A DNA stretch of 64,000 bases from Clostridia bacterium (GTDB lineage: Bacteria; Bacillota; Clostridia; Christensenellales; Borkfalkiaceae), in the NCBI GenBank assembly GCA_017558825.1, contig JAFYTO010000005.1, positions 1-64,000 of the forward strand. The letters are read 5' to 3'. The notes below the pieces were generated by a model, which searched no databases, was not told the origin of the DNA, and saw nothing but the letters and a program-made list of their open reading frames with translations. Each line of letters starts with the position of its first letter. Position 1 is the first letter of the stretch. A program made the translations under genes and the position numbers. This document shows, piece after piece, positions 15,153 to 23,332 of this stretch.

Positions 15153-15181
15153 TTGACTTTGCTAAAAAAACGCAATATAAT
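15153..15181 (+). promoter_or_regulatory. Promoter of the aromatic amino acid operon
   Basis: TTGACT (15153-15158) and TATAAT (15176-15181) are spaced by 17 bases. Transcription should begin about 15188, just ahead of the leader-peptide ribosome binding site. Confidence 0.9.
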
Positions 15182-15201
15182 GTATGCAAAGGAGCAAAAT
15201 T

Positions 15202-15252
15202 ATGAAGTCAATATTTGTCTTTTATTACGAATATTACTTTACTAACCAATAA
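15202..15252 (+). CDS. Phe/Tyr-rich leader peptide of the aromatic operon
   Basis: This 16-codon ORF (ATG 15202, TAA 15250-15252) is preceded by AAGGAG. It encodes MKSIFVFYYEYYFTNQ, in which seven of sixteen residues are Phe or Tyr, clustered at residues 5-13. Placed between a consensus promoter and an attenuator, it has the form of a ribosome-stalling leader like those of pheA, pheS or trp in Enterobacteria. Scarcity of charged tRNA-Phe or tRNA-Tyr would stall the ribosome before the TAACC segment at its 3' end. The reading frame and composition are direct observations; the sensing role is inferred. Confidence 0.85.
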   Translation: MKSIFVFYYEYYFTNQ

Positions 15253-15338
15253 TTCTTATTCGGTTATTTTTTTGCGTACCAAAAATTTGTTTTTAGTATA
15301 AAAGGTGGCCGAATTTGTATTCGGTCATTTTTCTTTTT
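15243..15338 (+). promoter_or_regulatory. Transcription attenuator of the aromatic operon
   Basis: Mutually exclusive pairings are visible. Segment 1 (15243-15252, end of the leader ORF) pairs with segment 2 (15256-15266, one bulged C). Segment 2 (ATTCGGTT, 15258-15265) can instead pair with segment 3 (GGCCGAAT, 15307-15314) over 8 pairs. Segment 3 pairs with segment 4 (ATTCGGTC, 15319-15326) to form a terminator followed by ATTTTTCTTTTT. A stall at the Phe/Tyr codons would mask segment 1 and favour 2:3, allowing read-through. Confidence 0.85.
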
Positions 15339-15350
15339 AAGGCGGTTATT

Positions 15351-16367
15351 ATGATAGTAGTAGTTAAAAAAGAACACGAGCAAAAACAGTTTGACAACTT
15401 AGTAAAGTTCATAAAATCACAAGGCCTTGAAGTTGACGTTAGTAATGGCGCTCACACTACTATTTTAGGCTTAGTTGGCGATACAAGTAAAGTAGATATT
15501 GACCTTTTACTTTCGCTTGACATTGTTGAAAACGTTAAGCGTATTCAAGAGCCGTTCAAGTGCGTTAACCGCAAATTCCACCCAGAAGATACTATTGTAG
15601 AAGTTGCTGGCAAAAAAATTGGCGGAACAAACTTTAACTTTATGGCAGGCCCTTGCTCTATTGAAAGTGAAAAGCAAATTATTTCTATTGCGGAAGAAGT
15701 TAAAAGGGCTGGCGCGTCATTTTTAAGGGGAGGTGCATTTAAACCGCGCACTTCGCCATATTCTTTCCAAGGTTTAAGGGAAGATGGTTTAAAACTCTTG
15801 TTAAAAGCAAAAGAAGAAACGGGTATGCCTATCGTTACCGAACTTATGAGCGTTAACCATCTTGACTTGTTTAAAGACGTTGATATTATACAAATTGGCG
15901 CGCGCAATATGCAAAACTTTGAACTTTTGAAAGAGGTAGGCAAAACTAAAAAGCCTGTCTTGTTAAAACGTGGTCTTGCAAACACTATTGAAGAGTGGCT
16001 TATGAGTGCTGAATACGTTATGAGTGAAGGCTGTAAAGACATAATACTTTGTGAGCGTGGCATAAGAACTTATGAAACTTACACAAGAAACACGCTTGAC
16101 CTTTCCGCCATTCCAATTTTAAAAGATTTAACGCACTTGCCGGTTATTGTTGACCCTTCACACGCATCGGGCGTTGCAAAACTTGTTAAACCGTTATCGC
16201 TTGCTTCAGTTGGTGCTGGCGCACACGGACTTATGATTGAAGTTCACAATGACCCTAAACACGCACTTTGCGATGGTGCTCAATCTATTACTCCAGATGC
16301 GTTTGGCGATATTGTTAAAAGCGTTAACGTTATGCTTCCAATTGTTAATAAGGATTTACAATTATGA
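15351..16367 (+). CDS. aroF: 3-deoxy-D-arabino-heptulosonate 7-phosphate synthase (type I-beta)
   Basis: This 338-residue enzyme condenses phosphoenolpyruvate and erythrose 4-phosphate, the committed step of aromatic synthesis. Residues about 1-70 form the ferredoxin-like/ACT-like regulatory domain found in Thermotoga-type enzymes, where it mediates Tyr or Phe feedback. The catalytic barrel shows MAGPCSIE, RGGAFKPRTSPYSFQG, QIGARNMQNFELL, LLKRG, ILCERGIRTYE and VDPSHASG. I chose the ATG at 15351, with AAGGCGG 5 bases upstream, because the longer frame would begin inside the terminator hairpin. It overlaps tyrA by 4 bases. Confidence 0.95.
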   Translation: MIVVVKKEHEQKQFDNLVKFIKSQGLEVDVSNGAHTTILGLVGDTSKVDIDLLLSLDIVENVKRIQEPFKCVNRKFHPEDTIVEVAGKKIGGTNFNFMAGPCSIESEKQIISIAEEVKRAGASFLRGGAFKPRTSPYSFQGLREDGLKLLLKAKEETGMPIVTELMSVNHLDLFKDVDIIQIGARNMQNFELLKEVGKTKKPVLLKRGLANTIEEWLMSAEYVMSEGCKDIILCERGIRTYETYTRNTLDLSAIPILKDLTHLPVIVDPSHASGVAKLVKPLSLASVGAGAHGLMIEVHNDPKHALCDGAQSITPDAFGDIVKSVNVMLPIVNKDLQL

Positions 16368-17209
16368 ATATAGGCGTAATAGGCTTAGGCTTAATAGGCG
16401 GTTCTTTTGCTAAAACAATAAAAAAGAACACACAGCATAAAGTTTTTGGCTACGATATAAATTCCGTAACCGTTTTAAAAGCGCAAATGACAAACGCTAT
16501 TGACGGTGTTTTAGATGAAAACGCTGTTAAAGACGTTGATTTGTTAGTGGTTGCAACTAATCCAGACGTATTTTTAAGCGCCGTTGAAAAATATTTGCCA
16601 CTTTTAAAAAGCGGTGCAATAGTTGTGGACTTTTGCGGTACGAAAGAAAAAATTGTTGCCACTATGAAGCTTTTATCTAATACTTATAATGACTTAAAGT
16701 TTTACGGTGGCCACCCAATGGCTGGCAGGGAATTTTCCGGATTTGACCGTTCTACTTCAACACTTTTTGCAAAAGCTTCAATGATATTAGTTCCAGTTAA
16801 TACGGACATTTTTGATAACGATTTTATTAAAAAGTTCTTTTTAGAACTCGGCTTTTTAGAGGTTGTGTTTACTACTAGCGAAAATCACGATAAGGTTATA
16901 GCGTACACTTCGCAACTTTGTCATATTGTATCTAATGCTTTTATAAAAAATAAAACTTCGCAAAAGCATTACGGTTACTCAGCAGGCAGTTATAAAGATT
17001 TAACGCGCGTTGCTAGGCTTGATAGTGAAATGTGGTCAACGTTAATGCTTGAAAATAAAGAAAATTTATATAGTGAACTATGTGAATTTATTGATAATTT
17101 ACAAGAGTATAAACAAGCGCTTGAAAAAGGAGATAAAGCCTTATTAAAACAAATTTTACAAGAAGGTAGCGATATTAAAATTGCAACCGATTTTACAAAA
17201 TCTAAGTAA
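16364..17209 (+). CDS. tyrA: Prephenate dehydrogenase
   Basis: This 281-residue enzyme oxidatively decarboxylates prephenate to 4-hydroxyphenylpyruvate for tyrosine. The Rossmann motif is GVIGLGLIGGSFA at the N-terminus. VDFCGTKEKI, GGHPMAGREFSGF (substrate and catalytic His region) and SQLCHIVSNAF are typical of the family. No chorismate mutase or C-terminal ACT domain is fused; a mutase is present in the PheA protein of the same operon. It is translationally coupled to aroF through ATGA, and aroB follows after 9 bases. Confidence 0.94.
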   Translation: MNIGVIGLGLIGGSFAKTIKKNTQHKVFGYDINSVTVLKAQMTNAIDGVLDENAVKDVDLLVVATNPDVFLSAVEKYLPLLKSGAIVVDFCGTKEKIVATMKLLSNTYNDLKFYGGHPMAGREFSGFDRSTSTLFAKASMILVPVNTDIFDNDFIKKFFLELGFLEVVFTTSENHDKVIAYTSQLCHIVSNAFIKNKTSQKHYGYSAGSYKDLTRVARLDSEMWSTLMLENKENLYSELCEFIDNLQEYKQALEKGDKALLKQILQEGSDIKIATDFTKSK

Positions 17210-17218
17210 TGGAGAGTT

Positions 17219-18232
17219 ATGCTTAAATTAGATATAAAAACTTCGTCAAATTATACTGTTACTATTGATAATTCGTTAAACTCTTTTAACGAGGCGGTTA
17301 TGCCTATAATTGCTGGTAAAAAAATAGCGGTAATTTGCGATGAAAATGCAAAAAAATTACATATTAAGGGGCTTAAAAAAGCGCTTAAAGGACAAAATTG
17401 TTATTTTATAACCGTAAAAAGCGGAGAAAATAGCAAAAGTTCAAAAAACTATATTAGTTTGGTAGAAAAACTCGCTTCGCTCTCATTTACACGCAGTGAC
17501 TGTGTTATAACGTTTGGTGGCGGAGTTGTTGGAGACCTTGGCGCTCTTGTGGCTTCTACTTATTTGCGTGGAATAACGCTTGTAGCAATGCCTACAACGC
17601 TTTTATCTGCGGTAGACAGTTCGGTTGGTGGTAAAACAGCAATCAATTTAAAACAAGGCAAAAACTTGCTTGGCACGTTTTATCAGCCTAAAGCGGTTTA
17701 TATAAATACTGAGTATTTGCAAACATTGCCAAATAGAGAACTTTTAAGCGGTTACGGTGAAATTATAAAATATGCTTTTATAGATGCAAGCGTTAATTAT
17801 TATGACGTTAAATACGGCAATTATGAAACCTTGATTTATAAGTGCTTAAAAATAAAAAACGCTGTAGTTAGCAAAGATGAAAAAGAGGGTGGTCTTCGCA
17901 AAATTTTAAATTTGGGGCATACTTTTGGTCACGCCATAGAAAGCCTTTCCTCTTATTCAATTTCTCACGGCGAATGTGTTGTTAAAGGTATAAAACTTGC
18001 AATAGAACTCTCTAAGAGTTTGTATAATTTAGATGCTCAAAAAGTTGAAGAAATGTATAATCTATTAACAGTAAAAGGGCACAACTTAGACGTTGACTTT
18101 AAAATGGAAGACGTTATTAAGCAAATATATAATGATAAAAAACGCCAAAAAAACAGCATTAGTTTTATTGCTGTTAAAGATATTGGCAAAGTGGAAATTG
18201 AAAATATTTTAATAGAGAATTTAACTTTTTAA
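17219..18232 (+). CDS. aroB: 3-dehydroquinate synthase
   Basis: This 337-residue enzyme cyclises DAHP to 3-dehydroquinate using NAD and a divalent metal. It has the NAD-binding segment TFGGGVVGDLGALVASTYLRG, AMPTTLLSAVDSSVGGKTAIN, SGYGEIIKYAF with a metal-ligand Glu, LNLGHTFGHAIE and SHGECV with metal-ligand His residues. It lies between tyrA and aroA in the same direction with gaps under 10 bases. Confidence 0.95.
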   Translation: MLKLDIKTSSNYTVTIDNSLNSFNEAVMPIIAGKKIAVICDENAKKLHIKGLKKALKGQNCYFITVKSGENSKSSKNYISLVEKLASLSFTRSDCVITFGGGVVGDLGALVASTYLRGITLVAMPTTLLSAVDSSVGGKTAINLKQGKNLLGTFYQPKAVYINTEYLQTLPNRELLSGYGEIIKYAFIDASVNYYDVKYGNYETLIYKCLKIKNAVVSKDEKEGGLRKILNLGHTFGHAIESLSSYSISHGECVVKGIKLAIELSKSLYNLDAQKVEEMYNLLTVKGHNLDVDFKMEDVIKQIYNDKKRQKNSISFIAVKDIGKVEIENILIENLTF

Positions 18233-18239
18233 TTTGATT

Positions 18240-19481
18240 ATGAACGTGATAGTAAGCAAAAGCACAATAAACGGAACGGTTGTTTCTCCTCCGTCAAAAT
18301 CATATGCGCATAGGTTAATATTAGCATCTTTTTTAAGTGGAAAGCGTGTTAAAATTAAAAACGTGGGAACTTCTAAAGATGTGCTTGCCACTCTTAATGC
18401 AGTTAAGGCGCTTGGTGCTAGCATTGAAACTTACGATAACTATGTTATCGTAGAAAAACAAAATTTAATAAACGGTGCTACTATAAACTGTGATGAAAGC
18501 GGTTCAACGTTAAGATTTTTAATGCCTATAATACCTGCATTAAAAATTAGTGCTACACTTACGGGCTCGCCTACGCTATTATCTCGCCCTAACGAAAAGT
18601 TAATTGAGTGTTTAACTCAAAACGGTGCTAAAATTGACGAGTTTAACATATCGGGCGAACTTAAAGCGGGAACTTATTATATAGACGCGTCAATTAGTTC
18701 ACAGTATATTACAGGGCTTTTATTTGCGCTTTCTATATTGGATGGCGAAAGCAAAATAGTAATGCTTAACAAAGTTGTTAGTTCGCCTTATATTGTAATT
18801 ACGCTTGACGTGTTAAAAACCTTTGGCGTAAACGTTTGTTATAGCGGTAATGAAATTACTATAGTTGGCAACTCTTACGTTAAAACTGTTGATGAAGTGT
18901 GCGTAGAGGGCGACTGGTCTGGTTCTGCATTTATTTTAGCGCTTGGAGCGATTAACGGCAAGGTAACGGTAAATAATTTAAACGTAAACTCTACGCAAGG
19001 CGATAAGGCTATTTTACAAATATTAAAAGATTTTGGCGCAAAAGTAAGCGTTAACGGAACTAGCGTTACGGTAGAAAAGAGTGAATTAAAGGGAATAGAA
19101 GTTGATATAGATAAAATTCCAGATTTAGCCCAAGTAATTTCGGCAGTGGCTTCTTATGCAAAGGGTAAAACTCTTATTAAAAACATTGAAAGGCTTAAAA
19201 TTAAGGAAAGTGATAGGGTAAGCGCAATAGTAAATTCATTAACTGCTATAGGTGTAAATGCTAAAATAGACGGCAACTCTATTATAGTTATAGGTGGCAA
19301 TCATTTAGGCGGGGTTATTGACGGAGGCAATGACCATAGAACGGTTATGGCTGCGGTTGTTTGTGCTGTAAATGCAAGCGAACAAGTTGAAATTTTGGGC
19401 GCACAAGCGGTAAACAAGTCCTATACGGAATTTTTTGAAGATTTTAAAAAGGTAGGTGGAAAATTCAGTGTCAATATTTAA
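18240..19481 (+). CDS. aroA: 3-phosphoshikimate 1-carboxyvinyltransferase (EPSP synthase)
   Basis: This 413-residue enzyme transfers enolpyruvyl from PEP to shikimate 3-phosphate. Signatures are PPSKSYAHR (shikimate phosphate binding), DESGSTLRFLMP, SSQYITGLLFALS, KIPDLAQVISAVAS and RLKIKESDRV. I chose the ATG at 18240 over an in-frame TTG six bases earlier; there is no clear Shine-Dalgarno site, so coupling to aroB (7-base gap) is likely. The end overlaps the aroC start by 14 bases. Confidence 0.94.
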   Translation: MNVIVSKSTINGTVVSPPSKSYAHRLILASFLSGKRVKIKNVGTSKDVLATLNAVKALGASIETYDNYVIVEKQNLINGATINCDESGSTLRFLMPIIPALKISATLTGSPTLLSRPNEKLIECLTQNGAKIDEFNISGELKAGTYYIDASISSQYITGLLFALSILDGESKIVMLNKVVSSPYIVITLDVLKTFGVNVCYSGNEITIVGNSYVKTVDEVCVEGDWSGSAFILALGAINGKVTVNNLNVNSTQGDKAILQILKDFGAKVSVNGTSVTVEKSELKGIEVDIDKIPDLAQVISAVASYAKGKTLIKNIERLKIKESDRVSAIVNSLTAIGVNAKIDGNSIIVIGGNHLGGVIDGGNDHRTVMAAVVCAVNASEQVEILGAQAVNKSYTEFFEDFKKVGGKFSVNI

Positions 19482-20532
19482 CGGCAAAAACATTAAAATT
19501 GAAATATATGGCAAATCTCACGCAAGCGAAATTGGCGTTAAAGCAAGTGGTTTTCCATCTTTTAAAATAGACGAAGGCAAACTGAGCGAGTTTTTAAATA
19601 GGCGTAAGGCGTCAAGTGGTGCATTTTCTACACAAAGGAAGGAAAGCGACAAGCCTTTGTTTTGTGGTTTACAAGACGGTGTAATTAACGGCGATTTTAG
19701 CGCGAAAATCATTAATGAAAACGTTAAGAGTGGCGACTATAATAACCTTTACGGTAAACCACGCCCATCACACGCAGATTACGCTTGGTTTAAAAAGGAC
19801 GGAGCGCTTAATTTTAGCGGTGGCGGTAGGTTTAGCGGTCGTTTAACAGCTCCGCTTTGCATTGCGGGTGGTATTGCCAAACAATATCTTGAAAGTAAAG
19901 GAATATACGTTGAGGCGTATTTAAGCCAAATTGGTTTAGTAAAAGGTAAGTCTTATAAAGACGGTAAAATTTCAAAAGAAGAACTTGTCGCGTTGCGTAA
20001 TGGCGAAGAAATTCCAAGTTTAACAAATAAAAGTGAGATGCTCGAAGCTATTATAAGTGCAAAAAATGACGGAGATAGCGTGGGCGGTGTTATTGAGTGT
20101 ATAGTTTACGGTTTAAGCGCAGGGTTTGGCAATAATTTGTTTGGCGGTTTAGAAGGAAAAATAGCGTATTCTTTATACGCGGTGCCAGCCGTTAAAGGCG
20201 TTGAATTTGGCTTAGGTTTTGAATTAAGTAAAATGCTTGGTAGCCAAAGTAACGACAGTTTGTATTACAATGGCGAAAGCGTTGAGTTTAAATCAAATAA
20301 TATGGGCGGTATAAACGGCGGTATTTCTAACGGTCAGCCAATAACTATAAGCGTTGCAATAAAGCCAACGCCGTCAATTTACAAAGAGCAACAAACTGTT
20401 GACCTTGTAAACAAGCAAAACACTACAATAAAAATTGAAGGTAGGCACGATAGCGCCATTGCTGTTCGCGCCGTACCTTGTATTGAAAGTGCGGTTGCTC
20501 TTGCAATTTTAGATGAAATTTTAGGGGAGTAA
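19468..20532 (+). CDS. aroC: Chorismate synthase
   Basis: This 354-residue FMN-dependent enzyme eliminates phosphate from EPSP to give chorismate. Family motifs are IYGKSHASEIGV, FLNRRK, RPSHADYAWF, SGGGRFSGRLTA and NMGGINGGISNGQPI, ending with KIEGRHDSAIAVRAVP. The start is the GTG at 19468 with AGGTGG 7-8 bases upstream; a GTG at 19456 lies inside that site. The gene begins within the 3' end of aroA. Confidence 0.94.
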   Translation: MSIFNGKNIKIEIYGKSHASEIGVKASGFPSFKIDEGKLSEFLNRRKASSGAFSTQRKESDKPLFCGLQDGVINGDFSAKIINENVKSGDYNNLYGKPRPSHADYAWFKKDGALNFSGGGRFSGRLTAPLCIAGGIAKQYLESKGIYVEAYLSQIGLVKGKSYKDGKISKEELVALRNGEEIPSLTNKSEMLEAIISAKNDGDSVGGVIECIVYGLSAGFGNNLFGGLEGKIAYSLYAVPAVKGVEFGLGFELSKMLGSQSNDSLYYNGESVEFKSNNMGGINGGISNGQPITISVAIKPTPSIYKEQQTVDLVNKQNTTIKIEGRHDSAIAVRAVPCIESAVALAILDEILGE

Positions 20533-20534
20533 TT

Positions 20535-21674
20535 ATGGATTTAATTAGTCTAAGAGAACAAATTGATGCAATAGATACAAAAATAGTTGAACTTTATAAA
20601 GAGCGTATGGAGGTTTGCAAAAACGTTGGCATAGAAAAGGCAAAAAGCAATAACAACGTTTTAGATGCAAATAGAGAAAATCAAATTATTTATAGGCTTT
20701 CTTCACTTGTTGATAACGATTTAAAGTTATACGTTAAAGAACTTTACGAAGTAATGTTTTCAACTAGTAGGGCGTATCAATCTAAATACGTTAAAAAAGA
20801 AAGTGAAACGGTTAAAAAAATTGAAGAACTTTTAGAAAAAGGCGTTCTTGATTTTCCCGTTAGCGCAACCGTTGCGTGCCAAGGTATTGAAGGTGCAAAC
20901 AGTATGACGGCGACAAACAAATTGTTTCCTATAAATAATATTACTTACTTTAAAAACTTTGAGGGTGTATTCTCTGCTGTAGAAAAGGGCTTTTGTGACT
21001 TTGGCGTTTTGCCAATAGAAAACAGTACTGCAGGTTCTGTATTAGAAGTTTACGACCTTATGAAAAAATATAATTTTAGCATTGTAAGAAGCGTTAGAGT
21101 TAAAATTGACCATTGCTTGGCCGTTATTAAAGGCGCTAAATTAAGTGAGGTTAAAAACGTTTTATCACACAGTCAAGCTCTTAAACAATGCTCTAACATT
21201 ATTAAAGAACTTAAACTTAATGAAGTTTTGGCTGAAAATACTGCAGTAGGTGCAAGAAGTTTAGTTGAAAGCGGAGATAAGGTAACAGCCGTTATTTGCA
21301 GTGAAGACTGCGCTAACGCTTACGGTCTTGAAATTTTAAAGAAAAATATTCAAAATAGCGCATCAAACTATACACGCTTTATCTGCATTAAAAAAGATTT
21401 AACTCTTTATAAAGAGGGTCAAAAAATTAGCTTTATGACAAGTCTTTCACACACGCCAGGTAGTTTAAGTCGTTTACTTTCACGCTTTTACTCGCTTGGA
21501 TTAAACCTTACTAAAATAGAATCACGCCCAATAGAGAACAGTGACTTTGACTTTATGTTCTATTTTGACTTTGAAGGTAGCGTTGAAGATGCAACGGTTA
21601 GAACCTTAATTGCAGAACTTCAAAACTCTTCTGAAAACTTCGTACTTTTAGGTAGTTATAAGGAGATTGTATGA
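20535..21674 (+). CDS. pheA: Bifunctional chorismate mutase / prephenate dehydratase (P-protein)
   Basis: This is a 379-residue three-domain protein. An AroQ-type chorismate mutase (about 1-85) has LREQIDAIDTKIVELYKERM. A prephenate dehydratase (about 105-285) has YFKNFEGVFSAVEKGFCDFGVLPIENS-type substrate residues and NYTRFICI. A C-terminal ACT domain (about 295-375) has TPGSLSRLL and the ESRP motif used for Phe feedback. It makes phenylpyruvate. Two bases separate it from aroC, and its stop overlaps the next start (ATGA). Confidence 0.95.
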   Translation: MDLISLREQIDAIDTKIVELYKERMEVCKNVGIEKAKSNNNVLDANRENQIIYRLSSLVDNDLKLYVKELYEVMFSTSRAYQSKYVKKESETVKKIEELLEKGVLDFPVSATVACQGIEGANSMTATNKLFPINNITYFKNFEGVFSAVEKGFCDFGVLPIENSTAGSVLEVYDLMKKYNFSIVRSVRVKIDHCLAVIKGAKLSEVKNVLSHSQALKQCSNIIKELKLNEVLAENTAVGARSLVESGDKVTAVICSEDCANAYGLEILKKNIQNSASNYTRFICIKKDLTLYKEGQKISFMTSLSHTPGSLSRLLSRFYSLGLNLTKIESRPIENSDFDFMFYFDFEGSVEDATVRTLIAELQNSSENFVLLGSYKEIV

Positions 21675-22906
21675 AATATTGCTTAATTGGCGAAAAGTTA
21701 GGACATAGTTTTTCAAAAATAATACATCAAAAATGTGGGTTAAATTATACCTTAAACGAAGTTTCATATCAAAATTTAAAAGACTTTATTACAAACTGCC
21801 AGTTTGACGGCTTTAACGTAACTATTCCGTATAAAAGAGAGGTTATGAAATATCTTGACGGAATTAGCAGTGAGGCGCAAGGTATAGGTGCGGTAAACGT
21901 AGTAAAAAACGAAAACGGTCGCCTTTACGGTTTTAATACCGACTATGACGGATTGGTTTTTGCGTGTGAGCAAAAGGGTGTTACGGTAAGCGGTAAAAAC
22001 GTTTTGGTTTTAGGTAGCGGTGGCGCAAGTAAAACGTCAGTTTATTACGCTAAGCAAAACGGAGCAAAAAGCGTAACGGTAGTTAGTAGAACCGGCGAAG
22101 TTAATTATGAAAACGTTTATAACCTTGTAGATACGCAAGTTATTATAAATACTACGCCCGTAGGTATGCAGCCAAACAGTTATGATAAAATTATCAATCT
22201 AACGTCTTTTAAAAATTTAGAAAGCGTTGTTGATTTTATTTATAATCCTGCAAAAACTCAGCTTTTAATTGATGCGGAAAAGTTGGGCTTAAAATGCGTT
22301 GACGGACTTTCAATACTTGTTGAACAAGCCTTAAAAGCGCAAGATATTTGGCTTAATAAAACGCACGCGCTTGTAGATAGCGTAAAAATGCTTAACGATA
22401 TACGCCAAATGACTTTAAACGCCGTTTTAATAGGAATGCCGTCATCAGGCAAGTCAACGCTAGGCAAAACGCTTGCAAAGGCGTTAAATAGGCGTTTTTA
22501 CGACTGTGACGAACTTTTTTTAGAAAAATTTAACGTAAGCCCAGGCGATTATATAATAAAATATGGTGAAACCGCTTTTAGAGAAAAGGAAAGTGAAGTT
22601 ATAAAAGAACTTTCCAAAACGACTGGCGCTGTTATTTCAACAGGTGGCGGTGTAGTTGAAAGAGAAGTAAATATGCAAAACCTAAAAATAAACGGTGTTA
22701 TAATTTACGTAATGCGTGATGCTGACAAACTTATTGAAGACGGTAGGCCATTATCAAGTAGCGTTGGGGTACACGCACTTTTTGAAAGGCGTAAGCAAAA
22801 GTATTTAGATTATAGTGATATTACCGTAGATAATAACGGGGAAATTGAAAACGCAAATAAGGAGATTTTTAAAGCTTATGAAACTGCTTGTAATAAATGG
22901 TGTTAA
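21671..22906 (+). CDS. Shikimate dehydrogenase - shikimate kinase fusion
   Basis: This is a 411-residue two-domain protein. Residues 1 to about 245 are an AroE-type shikimate dehydrogenase (LIGEKLGHSFSKIIH, FNVTIPYKREV, NTDYDG, LGSGGASKTSVYYA). Residues about 250-411 are an AroK/AroL-type kinase with Walker A GMPSSGKST (255-263), the shikimate-binding DCDELF, STGGGVV and an RPL lid. It therefore does two steps of the pathway, 3-dehydroshikimate to shikimate 3-phosphate. The pairing of these two domains is unusual compared with separate genes or the fungal AROM and plant DHQD-SDH proteins. Confidence 0.93.
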   Translation: MKYCLIGEKLGHSFSKIIHQKCGLNYTLNEVSYQNLKDFITNCQFDGFNVTIPYKREVMKYLDGISSEAQGIGAVNVVKNENGRLYGFNTDYDGLVFACEQKGVTVSGKNVLVLGSGGASKTSVYYAKQNGAKSVTVVSRTGEVNYENVYNLVDTQVIINTTPVGMQPNSYDKIINLTSFKNLESVVDFIYNPAKTQLLIDAEKLGLKCVDGLSILVEQALKAQDIWLNKTHALVDSVKMLNDIRQMTLNAVLIGMPSSGKSTLGKTLAKALNRRFYDCDELFLEKFNVSPGDYIIKYGETAFREKESEVIKELSKTTGAVISTGGGVVEREVNMQNLKINGVIIYVMRDADKLIEDGRPLSSSVGVHALFERRKQKYLDYSDITVDNNGEIENANKEIFKAYETACNKWC

Positions 22907-23303
22907 CCTTAATATGCTTGGCATAAGAGAGCCAGGTTTATATGGAAAAGGCGATTATAAGTCGCTTGTAAAATTTATTAAGAACAGCGCAAAAAATAAT
23001 GGGGTAAGTGTTAAAGCTGTGCAATTTAATAGTGAAGAAAAGATTGTAAAAGCTATTCAAAAAGCGTATAAAAGGTTTGACGGCATTATTATAAATGCGG
23101 GCGCATATACTCACACAAGCGTTGCTATACTTGACGCGTTAAAAGCCGTTTCTATTCCTACCGTTGAAGTGCATTTAACTAACATAAACGAGCGTGAAGA
23201 GTTTAGAAAGTTTAGTTATATTAGTTTATATGCAGAAAAAGTTATAGTTGGTTTAGGTTTTGAAGGTTATAATAAAGCTATAGAATATTTTGTAAGTAAA
23301 TAA
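22878..23303 (+). CDS. aroQ: 3-dehydroquinate dehydratase, type II
   Basis: This 141-residue enzyme, the usual dodecameric type II length, dehydrates 3-dehydroquinate. It has NGVNLNMLGIREPGLYG, the catalytic Tyr region, FDGIIINAGAYTHTSVAILDAL, VEVHLTNINEREEFR and a conserved C-terminal segment. I chose the ATG at 22878 because MKLLVINGVNLNMLG is the standard N-terminus; AAGGAG lies about 13 bases upstream. It overlaps the AroE-AroK gene by 29 bases and is the last gene of the operon. Confidence 0.95.
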   Translation: MKLLVINGVNLNMLGIREPGLYGKGDYKSLVKFIKNSAKNNGVSVKAVQFNSEEKIVKAIQKAYKRFDGIIINAGAYTHTSVAILDALKAVSIPTVEVHLTNINEREEFRKFSYISLYAEKVIVGLGFEGYNKAIEYFVSK

Positions 23304-23332
23304 AAAAACGCGGTTACTCAACCGCGTTTTTA
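23304..23332. terminator. Terminator of the aromatic operon
   Basis: ACGCGGTT (23308-23315) pairs with AACCGCGT (23320-23327) around ACTC, with A- and T-runs on both sides. It may also end the ABC operon arriving on the minus strand. Confidence 0.88.

Follow-up and report, generated by a model that had tools for sequence, protein, structure and literature searches.

What governs the eight-gene shikimate operon that begins with aroF in this Clostridia genome, and what part is played by the short reading frame, crowded with Phe and Tyr codons, that precedes its first gene? The locus lies in a 64,000-nt stretch of contig JAFYTO010000005.1, referred to here as the window. Judged from its sequence and those of its relatives, the segment 15153..15338 is very probably a ribosome-mediated transcription attenuator, at which a shortage of charged tRNA-Phe or tRNA-Tyr would lead to read-through into the shikimate operon. 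A preliminary description of this DNA had proposed a Phe/Tyr leader-peptide attenuator, and the conserved leader frame and alternative pairing described below support that reading.

The leader features all lie on the + strand. A sigma-70-type promoter match, TTGACT - 17 nt - TATAAT, occupies 15153..15181 and agrees with the consensus at 11 of 12 positions, bearing out the consensus promoter described earlier. It is followed by a Shine-Dalgarno-like AAAGGAG (15188..15194; 5/6 match to AGGAGG) and by a leader ORF of 16 codons, MKSIFVFYYEYYFTNQ* (15202..15252), with ATG at 15202 and TAA at 15250-15252, which is kept across relatives. Seven of its 16 residues are Phe or Tyr, exactly as first described, and the Phe/Tyr codons extend from 15214 to 15240. 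The 163-nt leader RNA folded more stably than all 200 of its shuffled versions (z = -4.24). The consensus sequences for promoter and Shine-Dalgarno site, the T-box core motif and the score thresholds used in this work are general knowledge.

Downstream, eight genes on the same (+) strand, from 15351 to 23303, were identified by homology, and they run from DAHP synthase to AroQ as previously listed. The first, aroF (15351..16367), encodes a DAHP synthase with an N-terminal ferredoxin-like domain (NF006421 and TIGR01361 over cut-off; PF18152, PF00793). The enzyme is a relative of PDB 1rzm, which we take to be the DAHP synthase of Thermotoga maritima, and its ferredoxin-like domain presumably serves feedback by Tyr and Phe. 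Next come tyrA, prephenate dehydrogenase (16364..17209; best family 167 bits, below the cut-off of 295), aroB, 3-dehydroquinate synthase (17219..18232; TIGR01357 over cut-off), aroA, EPSP synthase (18234..19481; TIGR01356 over cut-off), and aroC, chorismate synthase (19456..20532; TIGR00033 over cut-off), the true start of which is probably slightly downstream of 19456. The remaining genes are pheA, chorismate mutase and prephenate dehydratase (20535..21674; families below their cut-offs), an aroE-aroK fusion of shikimate dehydrogenase and shikimate kinase (21671..22906; PF08501 and PF01202 over cut-off, NCBIfam below), and aroQ, type II 3-dehydroquinate dehydratase (22878..23303; TIGR01088 over cut-off). 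Together, the genes take the pathway from DAHP synthase as far as prephenate dehydrogenase (tyrA) on one end branch and prephenate dehydratase (pheA) on the other.

A strong two-way terminator found by the terminator scan closes the operon at 23304..23331. Inside the operon, a weak 5-pair terminator match lies on the + strand at 19609, and promoter-like matches numbered 37 on both strands, versus 23.5 expected. In view of these internal promoter-like matches, it is possible that the later genes are partly independent of the leader. On the other side, a PLP-dependent aminotransferase gene (NF005305; 13881-15068) diverges from the operon, and its product could perform the last step to Phe and Tyr. 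Since this upstream gene is divergent, the terminator before aroF cannot serve it and can serve only the shikimate operon.

In the window by itself, the Phe/Tyr score of the leader (7 in 12 codons) was borderline, with p of about 0.05 (about 1 in 20 dinucleotide shuffles), and aroF loci were therefore gathered from relatives. The first set comprised 30 and 25 loci from relatives and 80 named loci, the best 80 of at least 595 matches; these 135 loci, minus 2 duplicates, gave 133, including L140, L142 and L143, in which the aroF start is uncertain. Up to 420 nt upstream of aroF were scanned for an ORF with at least 6 Phe/Tyr within 12 codons. Such an ORF was found at 82 of the 133 distinct loci, versus 4.9 expected from shuffles. 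Among all 190 amino-acid pairs, Phe+Tyr was the most enriched (82 versus 4.5 expected), followed by Ala+Phe (46 versus 8.6 expected). Two further samples, both leaning towards relatives, gave Phe/Tyr leaders in 55 of 89 aroF loci of the class (4.3 expected; from 144 matching genomes, the 29 most similar loci listed plus 60 chosen at lower ranks) and in 10 of 29 loci of the phylum (0.9 expected; the most similar loci listed, out of 135 matching genomes). Two of these loci were already in the first set, one was drawn into both samples, and the samples were not summed.

When internal starts were allowed, leader loci rose from 82 to 89 of 133, and the other 44 had no leader within 420 nt. The follow-up counts used 88 leader loci, leaving out L028, in which the intervening region is too short, and 45 leaderless loci, which include L028. 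A promoter match of at least 10/12 was present within 90 nt 5' of the leader start at 68 of 86 leader loci, two more having been dropped for too little upstream sequence, versus 2.1 expected from shuffling. The 160 nt before aroF contained a terminator with an energy of at most -8 kcal/mol at 81 of 88 leader loci, versus 17 of 45 leaderless ones. Among the carriers with species names are C. ganghwense and the culturable Clostridium magnum (DSM 2767, L103) and Oscillibacter valericigenes (Sjm18-20, L062); many others are metagenome-assembled genomes, several of them from herbivore guts. Among the nearest 30 loci, L016, L017, L019, L023 and L029 were leaderless in the scan, and in L029 the leader sits further out, about 457 nt upstream of aroF. 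In family f14 as a whole, the leader was observed about 330-460 nt from aroF, much further than elsewhere (L029; L165 233-313).

The coding pattern was followed in alignment A3, which holds 33 matches from the 36 loci given (L018 and L028 partly misaligned). Within the run, Phe or Tyr accounted for 218 of 296 codons in frame, versus 59/265 and 49/264 in the other frames. Of 2543 comparisons between one Phe/Tyr codon and another, 437 were synonymous and 810 were Phe-Tyr exchanges, so what is retained is 'Phe or Tyr' and not one given residue. Such retention is as expected if a ribosome were to stall on either, and the codon pattern leads us to infer that the leader ORF is translated. It is conceivable that the frame encodes a functional micropeptide, or that it is a plain short ORF standing beside an unrelated terminator, for AT-rich DNA can give Phe/Tyr-rich frames by chance, and 13 of 133 reverse complements reached the same score. 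Outside the Phe/Tyr run, however, the peptides differ widely between loci, and both the distance held between stop codon and segment 2 and the co-variation of three RNA segments, presented below, speak against this explanation, which we regard as very improbable. The more distant leaders L103, L108, L111, L261 and L302 share, by eye, a FYFSWGYFYFSAGYFFCKK-like peptide pattern and are more alike than Phe/Tyr content alone needs.

An attenuator that responds to Phe only or to Tyr only would also contain both codons if one amino acid were limiting in practice. A precedent is the aroF leader AroR of Corynebacterium glutamicum, which reads Phe-Tyr-Phe, and yet Tyr availability is reported to be without effect on transcription (PMC11802643). 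In the present family, the two kinds of codon are similar in number (438 Phe and 358 Tyr over 88 leaders), both occur in 87 of 88 leaders, and they swap at the same positions; moreover, the operon carries the branches to both amino acids. On these grounds, a response to a single amino acid is unlikely, and from the codons and the free exchange between relatives dual sensing of Phe and Tyr would be expected. Trp was found in 0 of 15 leaders of the window type (alignment A2, described below), and in 12 of all 88 leaders; the wider samples had it in 20 of 65.

The RNA downstream of the leader ORF can pair in two mutually exclusive ways. Segment 3 (15301..15314) is common to both. With segment 4 (15319..15332), it forms a terminator (-15.3 kcal/mol) whose 14 pairs enclose a loop of 4 bases and which is followed by the U-rich tail CTTTTT (15333..15338); the U-rich terminator expected directly before aroF is thus in place. 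With segment 2 (15258..15271), close 3' of the stop codon, it forms an antiterminator of 14 pairs including G-U. Both pairings are therefore longer than the 8-10 bases of complementarity noted at the outset, a figure that is about right for a third pairing, the weak candidate 'protector' (1:2) hairpin at 15243..15266 (arms 15243-15252 : 15256-15266; -4.4 kcal/mol).

Conservation of these pairings was assessed on A3, which was fitted to the terminator, and on A2, which consists of 15 hand-chosen loci of the window type; the antiterminator was unused in building either. On A2, 96.6% of cells were paired in the terminator, with 6 pairs showing double changes, and 97.3% in the antiterminator, with 3 doubly changed pairs, versus 26-57% for slid pairings. 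On the 33 rows of A3, the terminator had 97.9% of cells paired with 6 doubly changed pairs (48 cells), and the antiterminator 95.8% with 4 (23 cells); such pairing counts are inflated by kinship among the sequences, and the covariation and swap tests correct for descent only in part. The numbers of doubly changed pairs in A3 were matched by 15 of 500 shuffles for the terminator and 6 of 500 for the antiterminator, and the numbers of doubly changed cells by 0 of 500; in the antiterminator, 33 of 500 shuffles had as many additional pair types. At A3 columns 103, 160 and 195, all three strands co-vary at one position.

Taken locus by locus, antiterminator energies surpassed shuffles (p at most 0.05) at no more than 21 of the 85 loci, a signal too weak to be used by itself, and swapped-partner tests were for this reason used together with covariation. 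Over 85 loci, many of which have differing hairpin sequences, the segment-2 region paired better with its own segment 3 than with swapped partners (z = -8.7, 0/5000 permutations). The controls pairing the Shine-Dalgarno region (z = -0.1) or the promoter (z = -1.1) with segment 3 were flat; the control pairing the promoter with the middle region scored when all loci were taken (z = -3.2), though not among loci of the window type. The stop codon holds its place as well: in all 15 A2 loci, its first base lies 5-10 nt 5' of the core of segment 2. The preliminary description had named phylogenetic comparison as a check, and conservation of the leader frame and of the alternative pairing is contrary to the outcome that it regarded as refuting.

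Of the three-way choice of pairings originally envisaged, the terminator and the antiterminator stand with their compensatory changes, and the third pairing is without comparative support. The 1:2 pairing was no better than shuffles, with 77.9% of cells paired in A2 and 63.5% in A3, and the protector hairpin, having no covariation in either alignment, is not counted as an established part. The swap test did show the classical layout, in which the Phe/Tyr run pairs with a downstream segment, for the 66 loci outside the window type (z = -10.5), but not for the 19 window-type loci. A protector hairpin is usual in leader-peptide attenuators, although not universal.

A variant of the attenuator would do without this hairpin, the ribosome-binding region of the leader pairing instead with TTTTTGCGTA 3' of segment 2 and thereby shutting an untranslated leader. 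In the 19 window-type loci, the Shine-Dalgarno region did pair better with its own TTTTTGCGTA than with swapped ones (z = -3.5, 1/5000 permutations) while the promoter-middle and Shine-Dalgarno-segment 3 controls were flat, and long matches occur in L005, L006, L024, L026 and L039. Against this, a control was equally high among the other 66 loci, the own pairing was no better than the cross pairing in L009, L011, L014, L040 and others, and family f16, by eye in A3, retains the segment with the pairing absent. In the window, moreover, the pairing region is partly upstream of the likely transcription start. Taken together, the variant is possible but doubtful. As for the TTTTTGCGTA segment itself (window 15267-15277; A3 columns 106-118), it overlaps and follows segment 2, is kept across families and is without a consistent pairing partner; it may act as a pause site for transcription or as a further pairing element. 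A conserved TTTTTG stands 3' of segment 2 and could conceivably make the polymerase pause.

Returning to attenuation by alternative pairing of segments 2, 3 and 4, the following order of events is proposed. With ample Phe and Tyr, the ribosome would get to the stop codon and hide the start of segment 2, leaving segments 3 and 4 to fold into the terminator ahead of aroF. If the ribosome were instead stuck on the Phe/Tyr codons, segment 2 would be free to pair with segment 3 once the latter has emerged; this pairing would pre-empt the terminator, and RNA polymerase would read on into the operon. In a masking model, the probability of the antiterminator before segment 4 is made was 0.97-0.98 with the ribosome at the Phe/Tyr codons and 0.23 with the ribosome at the stop codon, an order of events that, in the model, is that of classical attenuation. 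In the full-length leader at equilibrium, the terminator was favoured wherever the ribosome stands (0.71-0.95), meaning that the choice would have to fall during transcription and be kinetic. With no ribosome, the antiterminator still formed before segment 4 (0.96). Both results count against the attenuator reading, the 1:2 hairpin that is meant to stop such a ribosome-free antiterminator being without covariation support.

The locus nevertheless has the parts by which leader-peptide attenuators are recognized, namely a Phe/Tyr-rich ORF, an intrinsic terminator, an exclusive antiterminator and the matching ribosome geometry. What sequence and comparison establish is an ORF, two mutually exclusive pairings that bear compensatory changes, a stop codon placed just 5' of segment 2, and a terminator that follows the promoter match and precedes aroF. 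The attenuator appears to be conserved, in a family widespread before aroF in Clostridia, and is very likely ribosome-mediated.

T-boxes are commonly regarded as the standard Gram-positive way to match amino-acid genes to tRNA charging, and they would sense tRNA directly, without translation. They are common in this group, and the window's own genome has 9 T-box matches, 7 of them over cut-off. Across the window, the region before aroF included, there was however no match to the T-box family (RF00230) at cut-off, and none of the weak matches fell on the leader stretch. The T-box core motif occurred in 0/133 and in 2/118 further aroF upstream regions, never alongside a leader, and the leader segments here are far too short for a T-box. 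The probability that the window's leader is one is negligible.

The downstream genes of 7 of the 9 T-boxes were viewed, and six places could be named: pheS-pheT (specifier read as UUC), trpB, cysE-cysS, a leuA-like gene and, behind the two T-boxes below cut-off, ileS and thrS. Two T-boxes on contig C18 of the same genome (L033 and L035) were observed about 3 kb apart, and the proteins encoded after them resemble one another by eye, with a helix-turn-helix-like stretch at the N-terminus. With T-boxes before pheS-pheT and the others and none before aroF, the same cell probably relies on T-boxes where charging is concerned and on the leader for synthesis. A search of the window's genome with the leader model found no second copy of the leader (best other match E = 0.19).

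Across 396 genomes of the order, the leader-RNA model R1 gave 25 matches in 24 genomes. Twenty of the 25 lie before aroF, 5 of these being loci in the model or twins of them, and 2 form a tandem ahead of a gene for a TrpX-like substrate-binding protein (G237), whose match is below the family cut-off. The matches L163, L167 and L168 were counted as spurious, with no leader. As the model reaches only 24 of 396 genomes, our account of the distribution rests on the ORF score. In G237, the region 1501-1824 of L164 (the same place as L169) contains tandem Phe/Tyr leaders at 1521-1571 and 1666-1731, with a terminator-like hairpin after each, before the TrpX-like ABC transporter substrate-binding protein.

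Twenty transporter loci with PF04392 proteins were also inspected. Two genomes of the window's family, G020 and G036, carry mostly-Tyr leaders followed by terminators, and neither has an aroF match. In these two genomes, the leader peptides with their terminators stand before PF04392 proteins at L186 1238-1404 and L184 1188-1401 (MFTYTYYYYYYIGDLMMR, MTFVNVYYYSYYYIGGIKMQ); one of the transporter proteins with such a leader matches the TrpX-like family below cut-off. L190 has a shorter mixed run, L200 reaches the score via an unlikely long ORF, and 5 of the 20 loci have the T-box core motif. The mostly-Tyr leaders before TrpX-like transporter proteins, in two genomes without detected aroF, are a further argument against sensing of one amino acid at the aroF leaders, as they indicate that Tyr codons are likely read.

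These observations suggest, without proof, that the composition of a leader follows its target gene. One may go further and propose an old, class-wide regulon in Clostridia, in which leader peptides and not T-boxes control how much Phe and Tyr is supplied, each leader being fitted in composition to its target, while pheST and trpB of the window's cell remain under T-boxes. We consider the chances of this proposal to be evenly balanced. If true, the regulon would include mixed leaders before the shikimate operon, mostly-Tyr leaders before TrpX-like transporters of genomes in which aroF was not found, and, in a single genome, a tandem pair of attenuators ahead of such a transporter.

If the leaders work as predicted, much of Clostridia would have a second, translation-coupled device for aromatic synthesis, and many uncultured gut species would be covered by a leader for which no Rfam family was found, none matching it at its cut-off. 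One genome with a leader for synthesis and a T-box for pheST, both for the same amino acid, would allow a direct comparison of why the one device or the other is retained. As attenuation requires coupling of transcription and translation, the leaders would also bear on how tight this coupling is in Clostridia.

Neshat et al. 2014 are said to have described the aroR leader peptide before aroF in Corynebacterium glutamicum. In the attenuator of E. coli pheA, a Phe-rich leader is combined with a choice between antiterminator and terminator, and the device is concerned with Phe only and with pheA alone. The window's leader resembles it in having a leader of this kind (pheL in E. coli) and the same choice of structures, and scored 16 bits against the corresponding family, RF01859 Phe_leader, with a cut-off of 55. 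The pheL leader of pheA is named in PMC11802643. C. glutamicum aroR, with Phe-Tyr-Phe, precedes aroF (PMC4046766, PMC11802643). Like the window, it has Phe and Tyr codons in a leader peptide before a DAHP synthase gene, and the mode of control, predicted here, is ribosome-mediated attenuation. It differs in belonging to an actinobacterium, in having Phe-Tyr-Phe only and in being reportedly indifferent to Tyr, whereas the leader here has 7 Phe/Tyr among 16 residues and stands before eight genes in Clostridia.

The uORFC-13-1 motif before aroF is known from Acholeplasma and unassigned environmental sequences, with 24 examples, and its authors propose Phe-dependent attenuation with 'at least one' Phe codon (PMC8632094). 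Its promoter, uORF with one or more Phe codons and intrinsic terminator before aroF are like those of the window. In the available text, the motif is described with Phe and without Tyr or an antiterminator; the two were compared by description, and environmental members may overlap.

A literature search, largely of papers outside subscription, gave no report of clostridial aroF genes preceded by Phe/Tyr leaders. The rarity of leader-peptide attenuation in Firmicutes was nonetheless put too strongly in the preliminary description. Leader-peptide attenuators are reported for the his operons of Firmicutes (his attenuators in 17 genomes; PMC9413887) and for hisS/hisZ of bacilli (PMC2965389), and ilv of Staphylococcus aureus has a Leu-rich leader attenuator (PMC5794164); to these are added the aroF leader of C. 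glutamicum and the 82/133 and 55/89 loci reported here. The his and ilv systems, as described there, are like the present one in their ribosome-mediated attenuation, partly where relatives use T-boxes. They differ in the amino acids concerned and, for his, in its 17 genomes versus the counts of aroF loci given above. The kind of device is thus already known, and its points of interest here are its breadth, the putative sensing of two amino acids and the side-by-side use of T-boxes.
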